A stretch of DNA of 64,000 nt, from contig JADBXR010000008.1 of assembly GCA_020403425.1 (NCBI GenBank), positions 206,986 to 270,985 on the forward strand. Reading direction: 5' to 3'. The position numbers and the translations under genes are program-made. The notes under the pieces are model-generated. The model worked only from the letters and a program-made list of their open reading frames with translations, was not told the DNA's origin and did not search any database. The stretch is from Chitinophagaceae bacterium. GTDB lineage: Bacteria; Bacteroidota; Bacteroidia; Chitinophagales; Chitinophagaceae. Below, one piece after another: positions 35,858 to 41,782 of this stretch (within the stretch, counting starts at the first letter, position 1; each line of letters begins with the position of its first letter).

Positions 35858-36793
35858 ATGAGCAAAATAGAGGTACAGGGAACGATTATAAATATCCTCA
35901 GCTTAAATAATGCAGACTATATTTCGTTGACAAATATGGTTTCTAATCAGGAGGATGGCTCTAAACTAATTGAAAAGTGGCTTACCAATAAGAACACTAT
36001 TGAGTTTTTAGGGATTTGGGAGCAATTAAACAATAAGGCTTTCAATACCCCCGAATTCGGGGGTATTATGAATGAGGCTGGAACTAATAGGTTCTATATG
36101 TCTGTAAAACAATGGGTTGCAAGGACTAATGCAATAGGAATAACAGCAAGAGCGGGTAGTCAAGGCGGCACATTTGCTCACCGGGATATTGCTTTCAACT
36201 TTGGATTATATATCAGTCCGATATTTAATTTGATACTGATAAAAGAGTTTCAAAGGTTAAAAGAAATTGAAAGTAACCAATATGGCGTGGAATGGAATTT
36301 CAAAAGAGTTCTTAGTAAAGCAAATTATCAAATACACACAAACGCTGTTAAAAATTACATTATCCCCAAGGCAGGATATGCACAAGCAAAAGAGTGGTTA
36401 CTATATGCTGACGAAGCCGATATGCTTAACATAGCCATATTTGGCACTACAGCCAAACAATGGCGTGATGCCAACCCTGAAAGAGTATTAAATGGAGAGA
36501 ATATTAGGGATATGGCAAGCATAAACGAATTGGCTATTTTGTCAAATTTAGAGAGCCTAAATTCAATCCTTATCAAAAACGGCTTATCAAAGAAAGACCG
36601 TTTTAAAATACTCCGAGAAACTGTCGTTGACCAAAAGAAAACACTTGATGGGATAGATATGGTAAAGACGTTGAAGAAAGAAAACAGCTCTACCTTTATT
36701 GATTATCAAAAAAAAAGTAACAGCCAGTCGGACTCTACATTTGATATTCACCTAAAGGGGTTATTAAAAGTACCCCCACCAAAAAAAAGCTAA
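35858..36793 (+). CDS. KilA-N domain protein
   Basis: 311 aa. Residues about 15-120 form a KilA-N DNA-binding domain (DYISLTNMV, KNTIEFLGIWEQLNN, GGTFAHRDIAFNFGLYISP). The middle is helical and the tail is basic and proline-containing (LLKVPPPKKS). KilA-N proteins are common in phages and mobile elements; roles are mostly unknown, with a few acting as repressors or toxins. The 1-bp spacing after the transposase means co-transcription. It could control the cargo or be part of a defence function. Confidence 0.9.
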   Translation: MSKIEVQGTIINILSLNNADYISLTNMVSNQEDGSKLIEKWLTNKNTIEFLGIWEQLNNKAFNTPEFGGIMNEAGTNRFYMSVKQWVARTNAIGITARAGSQGGTFAHRDIAFNFGLYISPIFNLILIKEFQRLKEIESNQYGVEWNFKRVLSKANYQIHTNAVKNYIIPKAGYAQAKEWLLYADEADMLNIAIFGTTAKQWRDANPERVLNGENIRDMASINELAILSNLESLNSILIKNGLSKKDRFKILRETVVDQKKTLDGIDMVKTLKKENSSTFIDYQKKSNSQSDSTFDIHLKGLLKVPPPKKS

Positions 36794-36877
36794 AATAATT
36801 AGTAATTTTATTGCTAATTTGCTTAGTGATTAATATCTTGTGCTTATTTATATAACTACAATAACTTTAAAAATAAT

Positions 36878-37822
36878 ATGACCGCTCTACAGATGAGAAA
36901 CGATGCATGGTTAACCTCTCCATTAATACCATCATGGGTAAGAGGCAGGGAAGTAAGTTTTGACCAACATAATACGCCATCAAGTGTTTCAAAATATTGT
37001 TGGGAATCATTTCAAAAAGTATTAAAAGCAGAAAAGAAAAAGATTGATAGTTATAAAATTATTGAACCAAGTGCAGGAACTGGTTCGTTTTATGACTTAC
37101 TGCCAGTTAAAAACAGAATAGGCATAGACATAGAAAGATTTAACGGTTACCATAAGGAGTATATTCAGGCTGATTTTCTCACATGGAATCCTACTCAGAA
37201 AGATCAAAAATATTTAGCTATTGGTAATCCCCCTTTTGGATATAGGGGTTGGCTTGCATTATCTTTCTTAAACCACGCAGCCGAATTTTGCGATTATGTA
37301 GGTTTTATATTACCCATGTCTTTTCAAAGCGAAGGAAAAGGAAGTCCTAAATATAGAGTACCGGGAATGACTTTAATCCACCATGAAATTTTACCTGATG
37401 GTTTATTTATTCAGGCGTCTGGTGATAAAACAGCAGTAAATACGTTATGGCAGATTTGGAAAAAAGGAGATGGGATGAAGTTGCCCGATTATAGTCTTTG
37501 TGATGAATATTTAGAGTTATTTACAGTTGATCAAAGAAAAGAAAGATTGTGCGGAGCGGAAAAAATGAAAGATTGTAAAATATTCCTACAAAGAACTTTT
37601 TATACAGATCCTCCTACCTTAGTAAACGACTTTTCAAAAGTAAAGTATTGTTGTGGGTATGGTTTTATAATTAAAAAAGATAAGAAAATAATCAAAAACC
37701 TATTAATGAACGCCGATTGGGTTAAATATAGTAATTTGGCTACACATAATTGCAGGCATATATCTATGTATCATATAAAGCAGTATTTGTTAGATAATTA
37801 TATATTGAAATCACCCAAATAA
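36878..37822 (+). CDS. DNA N6-adenine methyltransferase
   Basis: 314 aa. SAM-binding motif I is IEPSAGTGSF (residues 62-71), an acidic motif II is IGIDIERF and catalytic motif IV is GNPPFGYRG (NPPF at 117-120), the signature of amino-methyltransferases acting on adenine. Motif order I-IV places target recognition in the C-terminal half. The following gene is separated by only 7 bp and encodes a nuclease candidate, so this is probably the protective half of a restriction-modification pair. AT-rich codon use matches the rest of the transposon, not the chromosome. Confidence 0.88.
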   Translation: MTALQMRNDAWLTSPLIPSWVRGREVSFDQHNTPSSVSKYCWESFQKVLKAEKKKIDSYKIIEPSAGTGSFYDLLPVKNRIGIDIERFNGYHKEYIQADFLTWNPTQKDQKYLAIGNPPFGYRGWLALSFLNHAAEFCDYVGFILPMSFQSEGKGSPKYRVPGMTLIHHEILPDGLFIQASGDKTAVNTLWQIWKKGDGMKLPDYSLCDEYLELFTVDQRKERLCGAEKMKDCKIFLQRTFYTDPPTLVNDFSKVKYCCGYGFIIKKDKKIIKNLLMNADWVKYSNLATHNCRHISMYHIKQYLLDNYILKSPK

Positions 37823-37829
37823 TGTATTG

Positions 37830-38354
37830 ATGGTGGATTATATACAGCTATTCAAATCCATAGTTGAAAAACATAAAAACGATAAAAAATGGGATGCTGG
37901 CAGTTTTGTTGGTATTAAAAGCCTATCAAATACAAAGGTAGGAACCGTTGGGCAGGATTTTATCGAAGGGCTATGTGAAACCCTAAATATTCCTATAGAG
38001 TTCCCCGTAAATATTTTAAAGAAAAGATTAACTCAAAGCCCATGGGATTTAAAGATATTCGGTATTTCTTTTGAATTAAAAACTGCTACAGAAGATACTG
38101 GGGGCAAATTTCAGTTTAACCATATTCGGTATCATAGGAAATATGATGCTGTGCTTTGCTTGGGTGTAAGCCCAGATGAATTACTTTTTAATATTTATAG
38201 TAAGGCGAATATAGCAACTGGCAAAGCAGGAAAACTCGTCTCGATGGAAAAGGGAGGTAATGCTTCTTACAAGCTTACAAAATCAAAACACGAACTATTC
38301 CATATTGACGATTTTCAAGAAAAATTGATAAAATTTACAACCTCCTTTGAATAG
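37830..38354 (+). CDS. Putative PD-(D/E)XK restriction endonuclease
   Basis: 174 aa using the ATG at 37830 (a TTG three bases earlier is also possible). PWDLKIFGISFELK provides Asp73, Glu82 and Lys84 in D-x8-E-x-K spacing, the core of PD-(D/E)XK nucleases. Glu46 in QDFIEGL could be the helix-1 acidic residue of the fold. The remainder is alpha/beta with Lys-rich surface. Directly following an adenine methyltransferase gene, it is best read as the cognate Type II-like endonuclease. I do not recognise a named enzyme, so specificity is unknown. It ends right at the right-end repeat. Confidence 0.68.
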   Translation: MVDYIQLFKSIVEKHKNDKKWDAGSFVGIKSLSNTKVGTVGQDFIEGLCETLNIPIEFPVNILKKRLTQSPWDLKIFGISFELKTATEDTGGKFQFNHIRYHRKYDAVLCLGVSPDELLFNIYSKANIATGKAGKLVSMEKGGNASYKLTKSKHELFHIDDFQEKLIKFTTSFE

Positions 38355-38407: not shown

Positions 38408-38452
38408 TATTTAGAAAACCAGGGCAACAAAGTAACTTGCCGGTGTATCTAT

Positions 38453-39022
38453 TTGGATACCAAACTATACAAACGCTCCCAGGTGACCGAAGATTACGAA
38501 CTGATAAAGGGTTGCATCCGCAACGATGCCCGATGCCAGCGTATGCTTTTTGATAAGTATGCGGGTAAAATGATGAGTGTATGCCTCCGTTACGCCAAAG
38601 ACCAGATGGAAGCAGAAGATATGATCCAGGATGCTTTTATCAAGGTATTCCAGTACATCGGCCAGTTCAAGTTCGAGGGAGCTTTTGAGGGATGGATCAG
38701 GCGTATCGTGGTGAATACGGCCATCCGCCACCTGGAAAAGAAGAAACTGCAGTTCAAAGATATAGACGACGACAGCCAGAACACCCCTTCTATTGATGCC
38801 CAGGCCTACTCGCAGTTGGGAGAAGCAGACCTTATGAGACTGATCAGCCAGTTACCCGATGGCTACCGCCTGGTATTCAACCTGAATGCCATAGAGGGGT
38901 ACAGTCATGAAGAGATCGCTGAAATGCTGAATATTCAACCCGGCACCAGTCGCAGCCAGTTGGTAAAGGCGCGGAAGATGCTGCAATACCAAATCTTACA
39001 ATTACAAAAAGTTGCTGTATAG
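38453..39022 (+). CDS. ECF RNA polymerase sigma factor
   Basis: 189 aa. Sigma region 2 lies at about 28-95 (MLFDKYAGKMMSVCLRY, AEDMIQDAFIKVF, FEGWIRRIVVNTA) and region 4 at about 125-180 (LPDGYRLVFNLNAIEGYSHEEIAEML). No ATG exists before region 2, so TTG at 38453 is the best start; the frame stays open upstream into the transposon end, leaving the true start uncertain. The transposon insertion replaced the sequence more than about 70 bp upstream and may have changed its promoter. It is 1 bp from the partner gene, a likely anti-sigma protein. Confidence 0.92.
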   Translation: MDTKLYKRSQVTEDYELIKGCIRNDARCQRMLFDKYAGKMMSVCLRYAKDQMEAEDMIQDAFIKVFQYIGQFKFEGAFEGWIRRIVVNTAIRHLEKKKLQFKDIDDDSQNTPSIDAQAYSQLGEADLMRLISQLPDGYRLVFNLNAIEGYSHEEIAEMLNIQPGTSRSQLVKARKMLQYQILQLQKVAV

Positions 39023-39023
39023 A

Positions 39024-40709
39024 ATGAACGATACCCAATTTGATGACTTCTTTAACGACAAATTCAAAGATCACGCTGTGCCCGTGCCAGCCGGTCTTTG
39101 GGATAAGGTCGTGGAAGGTCAATTTGATAAGTTCGTGGGCAGTAAACTCAAAGACGCCGAGGCCCCCGTTCCGGAAGGGCTGTGGGAGAAAATCAATGAT
39201 AAACAGTTTGATGGGTTTGTGGCCGGCACCCTGTCCGGGGCTGAAACTACGGTACCCACAGGTTTGTGGGACCGTATCAGTGACGGACAGTTCGACCAGT
39301 TTGTGGCCGGTAAATTACACGATCAGGAAGCACCTGTACCTGCAGGCCTGTGGGAGAAGGTCCGGCCGGAAGAAGAGGACGATGACCGCGTTGGTTTCCT
39401 CTGGTTCCGCTACCCGGCTGCAGCCGTTCTGATACTGGGCATCCTAACTGCGGCCGCCTGGGGCGGATATCTGTATTTTACCTCGCACCAGCAGAAAGCC
39501 TCAGAGACCCCTATCAGTAAAACAATACCTGCCGCGGGTCAATCATCATCACAAAAACCTGCTTCCGGCAACCAGCAACAGGACCTGGGTCCCGCTGCCC
39601 CTTCCCTGTCTGAAGAAAATCATAGAGCTGCTTCAGATGCAGATGTAAACGAAGCGCCATCTATGAGCAACACAAACCTGCCTGGCACCCCCCGGAAAAC
39701 AGGTATCGACCTCTTACGCCCGTCAGATCCATCCGGCAGGGATCTTGCCAACACTATGTACGATCCGTTCAGTAAAAAGGTACAGGCTGCAGACAACCAC
39801 CTGGCAGAAGATACACACGAGGAGGTCATTGAACCTTACCAGCAGAACCTGTTACCGGCATTCATCATACCGACCCTGACGGGTGGGTACGATCTGTCGC
39901 AGAGTCTGATGGACAAACAACTCTCAACCCTTAACCATACCAACCAGTTCAAGAACATCATCATCTGCCCGGCAGACAGCCGCCGTAATACCGATTGGTA
40001 CCTGGAAGCCTATGCCTCACCAGATATGCCATTCAAATCGGTAAGCAATGTATCGGCCTCACCGTTGTTCATGCTGAAGAAAGACAGTAGTGAGAGCATG
40101 CAGGTAAGTTATTCCGCTGGTCTGCGACTGGTAAAGCCCATCACGGATAATATCTTACTGAAGGCCGGTTTGCAATATTCGCAGGCTAACGAAAAATATG
40201 TATACAGAACCGAAAATGAGGTAAAAACCACTACAGTGGTAACGGTACGCACCATCATCCGCGCTCCTGGTGATACGGTGATCGTTCAGGATACCAGCGT
40301 ATTACAGACCATCGGATTCCGCAACAATACCGTACACAACCGTTACCGGAGCTTTGACATCCCGGTTACGGTAGGTTACCAGTTTGGCAATGAGGACCTC
40401 AAATTTGGCATCAACGCAGGCGTAGTGATCAACCTGTCATCCTGGTATCAGGGAGTGATCCTTGATTCTTCCTTGGCAACCGTAACGCTCAACAAATCTG
40501 GCAACAACGTATACAAGAGTAATATAGGATTGGGGCTTTACGGAGGCTTCAGCGTGGTGAAACGTTTGAGTGATGACATGCATGTTTTCTTTGAACCCTA
40601 TTTCCGTTATAACCTGTCAAATATGACCACCCCGCAGGCCAGCTTCCGCCAGCGCCTGAGTGTAGGTGGCCTGGCAGTGGGTTTACGGATCAATTTGAAC
40701 CGGAAATAA
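39024..40709 (+). CDS. Anti-sigma-like protein with four 28-aa repeats, one TM helix and a predicted outer-membrane barrel
   Basis: ATG at 39024 (1 bp after the sigma stop) gives 561 aa. Residues 1-115 hold four tandem 28-residue units of pattern QFDxFVxxKLxDxExPVPxGLWEKI. A single hydrophobic helix follows (about 130-152, YPAAAVLILGILTAAAWGGY). Then comes a low-complexity Ser/Pro/Gln-rich linker to about 300, and a beta-rich C-terminal domain ending VGLRINLNRK like an outer-membrane beta-barrel. The N-terminus would be cytoplasmic and could bind the sigma factor, the rest lies in the envelope. The anti-sigma role is inferred from position and topology. Confidence 0.75.
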   Translation: MNDTQFDDFFNDKFKDHAVPVPAGLWDKVVEGQFDKFVGSKLKDAEAPVPEGLWEKINDKQFDGFVAGTLSGAETTVPTGLWDRISDGQFDQFVAGKLHDQEAPVPAGLWEKVRPEEEDDDRVGFLWFRYPAAAVLILGILTAAAWGGYLYFTSHQQKASETPISKTIPAAGQSSSQKPASGNQQQDLGPAAPSLSEENHRAASDADVNEAPSMSNTNLPGTPRKTGIDLLRPSDPSGRDLANTMYDPFSKKVQAADNHLAEDTHEEVIEPYQQNLLPAFIIPTLTGGYDLSQSLMDKQLSTLNHTNQFKNIIICPADSRRNTDWYLEAYASPDMPFKSVSNVSASPLFMLKKDSSESMQVSYSAGLRLVKPITDNILLKAGLQYSQANEKYVYRTENEVKTTTVVTVRTIIRAPGDTVIVQDTSVLQTIGFRNNTVHNRYRSFDIPVTVGYQFGNEDLKFGINAGVVINLSSWYQGVILDSSLATVTLNKSGNNVYKSNIGLGLYGGFSVVKRLSDDMHVFFEPYFRYNLSNMTTPQASFRQRLSVGGLAVGLRINLNRK

Positions 40710-40762
40710 CGATACAGGCAACAAAACCGATACCCCGGGTATCTGATAGATAGTTAGAAATT

Positions 40763-41782
40763 ATGAAGAGAATCGTATACATCATGGTGGGTTTGTCGGG
40801 ACTGTTTCTTGCTTCCTGCAAGAAGGAGTTATCTGACAATTTTACCACGTACTCCAATCATCCGTTGAATGATACGGTCTGGGTGCGGAATGTAGCCAAT
40901 ACCGCTTCTGTGTACGACCTGTTCGAGCTTTTGTACCCCAGGGATTTATTAGTGGACTCCCTGAACGCTGTCAATGGTGGCAAACTGCATTTTGGAGACA
41001 GTGTGGAAGTAGAATTTGCACCCAATACCCTGGTGGGACCGGCCACATCTGGTACACCACAGGGCAATGTGCGGATAGAACTGTTACCGTTAAGAAGAAA
41101 AGGTGATTTCATCCGCGTATTCAGGCCCACCACTACTGCCGACGGCAGCTTGCTGGAAACCGGCGGCGGTTTTCTGATCCGCGCCTTTAAAGAAGATAAG
41201 GAACTGACCCTGGCCAGCAATACCAGTTTTGAATTGAAGTTTCATGATGTGGATACGGCCAAACCTGATATGCAGGCCTTTTATGGAAGAGAGGCCGTAC
41301 CTGCACCACTGAAAGGGATCGATACAGTTTTTTCCTGGGTCCGCGACTTCAACACAGGCTACCTGCCCACCTGGAGCAAGATCAGCAATAACCCATTGAT
41401 CCCATCTTATTACGGCTATGAGATCCAGTCGAAGAACCTTCGCTGGGTTACGGCAGACAGGTATATCGACAGCACGCTTCCCAACGTAAAAGTGACCGCG
41501 ATCCTTTCTCCGAACTTCACCAATAAGAACACGGCCGTATTCGCTGTATTCGACAACCAGAAGATCGTGGTGAACTGCAGACATGATTACGCTTCCCGTT
41601 CCTTTTTTGCCAGGAAGATCCCGGCAAAAAGTAAGATCAGGCTACTCTCCCTGTCAAAGATCGGCAGCGATCTTTACCTGGGTGTGCGTGAGATCAGCAG
41701 CGTATCACTGGTCACCAGTTACACCATTACGCCTCAGAAAAAGAGTTTAAAAGAGATCATCACCTATCTGAATGATCTATAA
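40763..41782 (+). CDS. Lipoprotein of unknown function, sigma-operon member
   Basis: 339 aa. Lipoprotein signal MKRIVYIMVGLSGLFLASC with Cys at 19. The mature part is beta-rich (residues about 60-150 look like an Ig-like or carboxypeptidase-regulatory module: GPATSGTPQGNVRIELLPLRRKGD). No family recognised. It follows the sigma/barrel pair after 53 bp on the same strand and ends at a terminator, so the three genes are probably one unit. Confidence 0.75.
   Translation: MKRIVYIMVGLSGLFLASCKKELSDNFTTYSNHPLNDTVWVRNVANTASVYDLFELLYPRDLLVDSLNAVNGGKLHFGDSVEVEFAPNTLVGPATSGTPQGNVRIELLPLRRKGDFIRVFRPTTTADGSLLETGGGFLIRAFKEDKELTLASNTSFELKFHDVDTAKPDMQAFYGREAVPAPLKGIDTVFSWVRDFNTGYLPTWSKISNNPLIPSYYGYEIQSKNLRWVTADRYIDSTLPNVKVTAILSPNFTNKNTAVFAVFDNQKIVVNCRHDYASRSFFARKIPAKSKIRLLSLSKIGSDLYLGVREISSVSLVTSYTITPQKKSLKEIITYLNDL

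Follow-up and report, generated by a model that had tools for sequence, protein, structure and literature searches.

A Dma-type candidate anti-sigma factor with four tandem copies of a putative sigma-binding unit in a Chitinophagaceae bacterium

A sigma factor locus with paired putative promoter sites

The window, which is the whole 64,000-nucleotide stretch of Chitinophagaceae DNA analyzed here, contains at 38483..39022 a gene for a 179-residue ECF sigma factor; this and the other features of the locus are on the + strand. The assignment follows from matches to Pfam Sigma70_r2 (7.5e-15) and Sigma70_r4_2 (1.8e-15), and the relatives with solved structures are AlgU, E. coli sigma-E, and SigW; the NCBIfam models that match are either general ones or score below their cut-offs. 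The start is probably the GTG at 38483 rather than the TTG at 38453 given in the list of open reading frames, because the orthologues align from this GTG onward. One base separates the TAG stop of the sigma gene (39020-39022) from the ATG at 39024 of a second open reading frame, which encodes 561 residues and whose stop codon ends at 40709. The product of this gene (39024..40709) is predicted from its sequence, Pfam, a profile of its repeated unit, AlphaFold, and Foldseek to be an envelope-spanning anti-sigma factor of the Dma type. A third gene at 40763..41782 encodes a 339-residue putative lipoprotein, recognizable from a signal with an ASC lipobox, and a homologue lies downstream in the orthologous loci; searches of Pfam, NCBIfam, and the PDB gave it no significant relative.

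Comparison of the sequences that precede the sigma genes led to recognition of a putative promoter, GGCAAC-N16-GTATCT, an exact match to which is present at 38423..38450, about 60 bp before the sigma start, with a second exact copy at 40717..40744, directly before the lipoprotein gene. The whole genome contains three exact matches, two of them at this locus, and a genome this large would be expected to contain approximately 0.4. No plausible gene lies immediately after the third (C25) on its strand, and this match was set aside as a chance occurrence. Of 54 orthologues, 46 have a relaxed form of the promoter ahead of the sigma gene, a figure that is not an independent test because the pattern was partly derived from these upstream regions, and 51 have it after the anti-sigma gene, the downstream site being located with the upstream-derived pattern; the relaxed form occurs in 0.4% of random 120-bp pieces. 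Because a promoter copy precedes its gene, the lipoprotein is a probable target and output of the sigma factor, and the pair of sites suggests an autoregulated operon with one lipoprotein target, forming a small local regulon.

The fourfold repeat and the architecture of the second gene product

The N-terminal part of the 561-residue protein contains four contiguous 28-residue units, to which a hidden Markov model of the unit assigns scores of 36.6 to 52.1 bits. Unit 1 (QFDDFFNDKFKDHAVPVPAGLWDKVVEG) corresponds to residues 5-32 and coordinates 39036..39119 (48.2 bits), unit 2 (QFDKFVGSKLKDAEAPVPEGLWEKINDK) to residues 33-60 and 39120..39203 (52.1 bits), unit 3 (QFDGFVAGTLSGAETTVPTGLWDRISDG) to residues 61-88 and 39204..39287 (36.6 bits), and the membrane-proximal unit 4 (QFDQFVAGKLHDQEAPVPAGLWEKVRPE) to residues 89-116 and 39288..39371 (48.5 bits). 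When the protein is compared with itself, a lag of 28 scores +232 (BLOSUM62), far beyond the best score of 18 (mean -32) in 5000 shuffled sequences at lags 15-56, and within lags 20-36 only lag 28 scores positive. Any two units are identical at 11-18 of 28 residues and at merely 40-53 of 84 bases, and Tandem Repeats Finder reports no tandem repeat at the DNA level; with the bases so diverged, the duplications are old.

The repeats are followed by a single predicted inner-membrane helix at residues 131-158 (39414..39497), which AlphaFold models as a helix and which coincides with the hydropathy maximum of 1.85. A putative disordered periplasmic tether occupies residues 159-325 (39498..39998), where pLDDT is mostly below 50 and the sequence is poorly conserved in A1, and the C-terminus is a predicted outer-membrane beta-barrel at residues 326-557 (39999..40694), with pLDDT mostly above 85-90. 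Foldseek matches the barrel to the transmembrane domain of OmpA (target TM-score 0.70-0.71), and PF13568 matches the C-terminus at 8.5e-6 and 26.4 bits, just below its 27-bit cut-off. The four units by themselves are predicted by AlphaFold with low confidence. Residues 1-130 contain no cysteine, and the protein thus lacks the cytoplasmic His/Cys zinc motif of the ZAS anti-sigma factors. A sequence-only reading of this DNA had described much of this organization, with a fourfold repeat of 28 residues, one inner-membrane helix, and a beta-barrel-like end in a gene 1 bp after the sigma gene. The gap, the repeat, and the helix are all borne out by the analyses above, and barrel prediction for residues 320-561, as that reading had suggested, places an OmpA-like barrel confidently at 326-557.

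The unit among relatives and its relation to the Dma proteins

To identify relatives, profiles were searched against 147 genomes from the same genus and 295 from the class, and the unit profile was run on the anti-sigma proteins of the orthologues and of more distant relatives. In other genera and families almost all of these proteins have exactly one unit before the membrane helix; their cytoplasmic part is about 35-55 residues long, and the unit, at about 25-28 residues, is the only element conserved there. Its core is FDxFxxxKL...PVPxGLWxKI, with a nearly invariant W. A sigma gene is adjacent in 122 of 130 loci, and most of the remaining loci are cut by contig ends. Fifteen control loci encoding barrels similar in sequence but lacking a long N-terminus have neither a unit nor a neighbouring sigma gene, and their proteins begin with a signal-peptide-like start; the unit thus goes with the sigma gene.

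Since it is the sole conserved cytoplasmic part in nearly all of the single-unit relatives, the unit is very probably an anti-sigma (sigma-binding) module, and the single-unit members would narrow the anti-sigma domain of the Dma proteins to approximately 28 residues. These comparisons support a partnership between the window protein and the adjacent sigma factor. The further claim of the sequence-only reading, that each unit is a sigma-binding motif, stands in part: the single-unit relatives make the role as a module very probable, whereas binding itself we infer from the association of unit and sigma gene and from published genetics on Dma proteins.

A two-unit orthologue and its sigma factor were also modeled by AlphaFold as one chain, a fusion obtained by reading through the in-frame TAA between the sigma and anti-sigma genes. 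The sigma factor is predicted confidently and the units with low confidence, at pLDDT values of 44-64, and the best matches in a Foldseek search with this model are sigma factors only. The proteins RseA, MucA, and RsiW resemble the window protein in being membrane-anchored inhibitors encoded beside their ECF sigma factors, and the window sigma factor resembles sigma-E, AlgU, and SigW, but no solved structure is recognizably related in sequence to the window unit, whose profile gives no match in the PDB up to E 10. Sequence similarity to a solved anti-sigma domain of this class (class I) was therefore not found, and a shared fold is possible. Members of the RseA/MucA/RsiW class are not known to have a barrel or tandem modules.

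A closer parallel is provided by Dma (dual membrane-spanning anti-sigma) proteins of the Bacteroidota, which extend from the outer membrane to the cytosol (PMC13088901). In Dma2 of B. thetaiotaomicron, an anti-sigma part at the N-terminus is connected through a transmembrane helix and a long disordered tether to a barrel at the C-terminus; the gene for Dma2 lies between the sigma gene das2 and BT_1557 (DUF4943), in the order BT_1559-1558-1557, and loss of Dma2 releases the sigma regulon (PMC13088901). Dma1 and Dma2, whose sigma factors are Das1 and Das2, share with the window protein an anti-sigma N-terminus, one transmembrane helix, a disordered tether, and a barrel, as well as an ECF sigma gene alongside and a further gene downstream, which for Dma1 and Dma2 goes up when the anti-sigma factor is lost. 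Unlike the situation with Dma2, the gene downstream of the window anti-sigma gene is not a DUF4943 gene, and the sequence similarity is remote. When the class was searched for DUF4943, two loci emerged in which a nadC-like gene is followed in turn by genes for a sigma factor, a barrel protein, and a DUF4943 protein, and both barrel proteins consist of one unit, a helix, and a barrel, with matches to the window barrel profile at E 2e-7 and 6e-10. The proteins of L187 and L188 have one unit each, scoring 14.8 and 21.6 bits with an iterated unit profile, which indicates homology. Homology, together with the gene order of the two DUF4943 loci, ties the window protein to the Dma family, and it is best read as a Dma-type anti-sigma factor, with four units compared with one in the proteins with the Dma2 order.

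A pair of similar design is described from Phocaeicola vulgatus in the portion of PMC9308784 used here, where the sigma gene M0N98_03761 is followed, as in the window, by a gene for an outer-membrane-spanning anti-sigma factor, M0N98_03760, with an inner-membrane helix and a C-terminal barrel. According to the same portion, the pair is induced by envelope stress, including a BamA inhibitor, loss of this protein releases the sigma regulon, and a similar pair is mentioned for B. fragilis (PMC9308784). The likeness to M0N98_03760 is one of description, and that portion of the source mentions no repeats. An anti-sigma factor reaching from the cytoplasm to the outer membrane, as had been proposed for the window protein, thus has support in the literature (PMC13088901 and the portion of PMC9308784 just cited), and the envelope-spanning design is already known and not new.

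What is new here is the tandem amplification of the Dma module, which is normally single, and the conserved promoter pair is also new; a literature search gave no relevant match on repeated or tandem anti-sigma domains, and the PNAS 2024 Dma paper may contain one. A survey of unit number in homologues, another suggestion of the sequence-only reading, gave counts from one to eight within one genus: of 55 distinct orthologues, 24 have one unit, 16 have two, two have three, four have four, five have five, two have six, and there is one each with seven and eight. In a tree made without the repeats (a quick search, with the root unsure), the arrays of at least four units form one clade (SH-aLRT 97), which includes L013, whose count of three reflects a sequence cut short by a contig end; proteins with two or three units fall into a separate clade (SH-aLRT 99). 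Unit number has changed at least 11 times on this tree, some of these changes arising through contig-end truncation. The 28-residue register is strict in the four- and five-unit arrays, and in the two-unit clade the spacing of the pair is even, at 35-36 residues. Two adjacent units in L011 are identical at 77 of 84 bases, which marks them as a recent duplication. Outside the genus, including other families, the arrays are fainter, with two units in L104, L107, and L109 and about five degenerate units in L035, so amplification probably arose more than once.

The locus is present in 67 of the 147 same-genus genomes. Those listed as lacking it are small, at 1.2-2.3 Mb, and most of those with it are larger.

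Proposed sigma docking and alternative explanations

We favor, with some reserve, a multivalent Dma protein whose four docking modules would sequester the sigma factor more tightly and raise the threshold for its release, a scheme that draws directly on the architecture, the barrel fold, the unit counts and their conservation, and the conserved promoter pair. The barrel would reside in the outer membrane, the disordered tether would cross the periplasm, and the one helix would cross the inner membrane, such that the cytoplasmic part would keep the co-encoded ECF sigma factor inactive. If each unit is a short sigma-docking element then one anchor would offer four docking sites and, with sigma and anchor produced from one operon, the extra sites would lower free sigma, and release would require loss or alteration of a larger fraction of the anchors. 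Once free, sigma would activate the operon that encodes it and the neighbouring lipoprotein gene via the matching promoters, and the signal is presumably outer-membrane damage. Simple arithmetic, assuming equal independent sites and equal synthesis of sigma and anchor, gives free sigma at tenfold KD of 27% for one site, 3.2% for four, and 1.4% for eight, and 10% of sigma would be free only after loss of about 55% of the anchors with four sites or 78% with eight. On these assumptions more units would therefore give tighter silence and a higher trip point.

Several units could instead wrap a single sigma factor as one composite site, for example at region 2 and region 4, giving a 1:1 complex in which the additional copies contribute only affinity. 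Class I anti-sigma domains are reported to contact ECF sigma factors through a dual binding interface in the portion of PMC7406223 used here, and the even pair of the two-unit clade would suit such a site. However, one unit suffices in many relatives, and five to eight units would presumably exceed plausible use by one sigma factor of about 180 residues; we regard this explanation as unlikely.

The pattern of constraint bears on whether every unit binds. Measured against the two nearest orthologues, the four units together have a dN/dS of 0.07, and the individual values, which are rough because the stretches are short and some synonymous distances large, are 0 for unit 1 (with zero amino-acid changes), 0.05-0.06 for unit 2, 0.115-0.137 for unit 3, and 0-0.035 for unit 4. 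These values fit purifying selection on all four units, strongest on the first and last and weakest on unit 3. In the middle units of 12 multi-unit proteins the D is kept in 92%, the V of PVP in 87%, and the W in 77%, and among single units the D and W are each kept in 94%; the W is lost in some copies of the longest arrays, and L011 and L142 have degenerate middle units. Because unit 3 and some middle units are relaxed or lack the W, not all of the units need be functional. Binding by only one or two units, either the first or the membrane-proximal one, with the middle units acting as neutral duplicates or as a spacer from the membrane, would account for the stronger constraint at the two ends and for the degenerate copies in L011 and L142, but is improbable given that the middle units have dN/dS far below 1, keep the key residues in most copies, and follow a strict register in the four- and five-unit arrays. 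An array that serves as a hub, with individual units bound to different sigma factors of one cell, is very hard to credit: units of one protein do differ at many positions and 21 matches to sigma region 2 are present in the genome, but the locus has its own sigma factor and its own promoter pair, with hardly another exact site in the genome, and several other sigma genes of this genome have their own single-unit-like partners.

Anti-sigma and sigma factors are usually taken to associate one to one. An extension of multivalent docking, which we put forward only tentatively, is that the protein acts as a true sigma sink, with the number of sigma molecules per anchor reaching as high as the unit number, and that evolution tunes the trip threshold of this response to envelope stress through gain and loss of 28-residue units, both in this genus and separately in other families. 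Unit copy number may thereby set how hard it is to trip the switch. The natural series of orthologues with one to eight copies allows stoichiometry and threshold to be tested directly, and the promoter pair is usable as a ready reporter.

Elsewhere in the same genome, L157, L158, and L159 (on C10, C27, and C28) each have a sigma gene followed by a gene whose product has a unit-like N-terminus, a membrane helix, and a barrel-like end, and by these features they are single-unit Dma-like pairs. L160 (C25:143600-146600) has a sigma gene followed by one for a 238-residue protein with a unit-like N-terminus and a membrane helix but no barrel. Within the window, the region 35858-38354, directly upstream of the sigma promoter, contains what we take to be KilA-N-type, adenine methyltransferase, and restriction-endonuclease-like genes. 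Close relatives such as L006 have a glutamate-cysteine-ligase-like gene as the upstream neighbour instead, so this region looks like an insertion.
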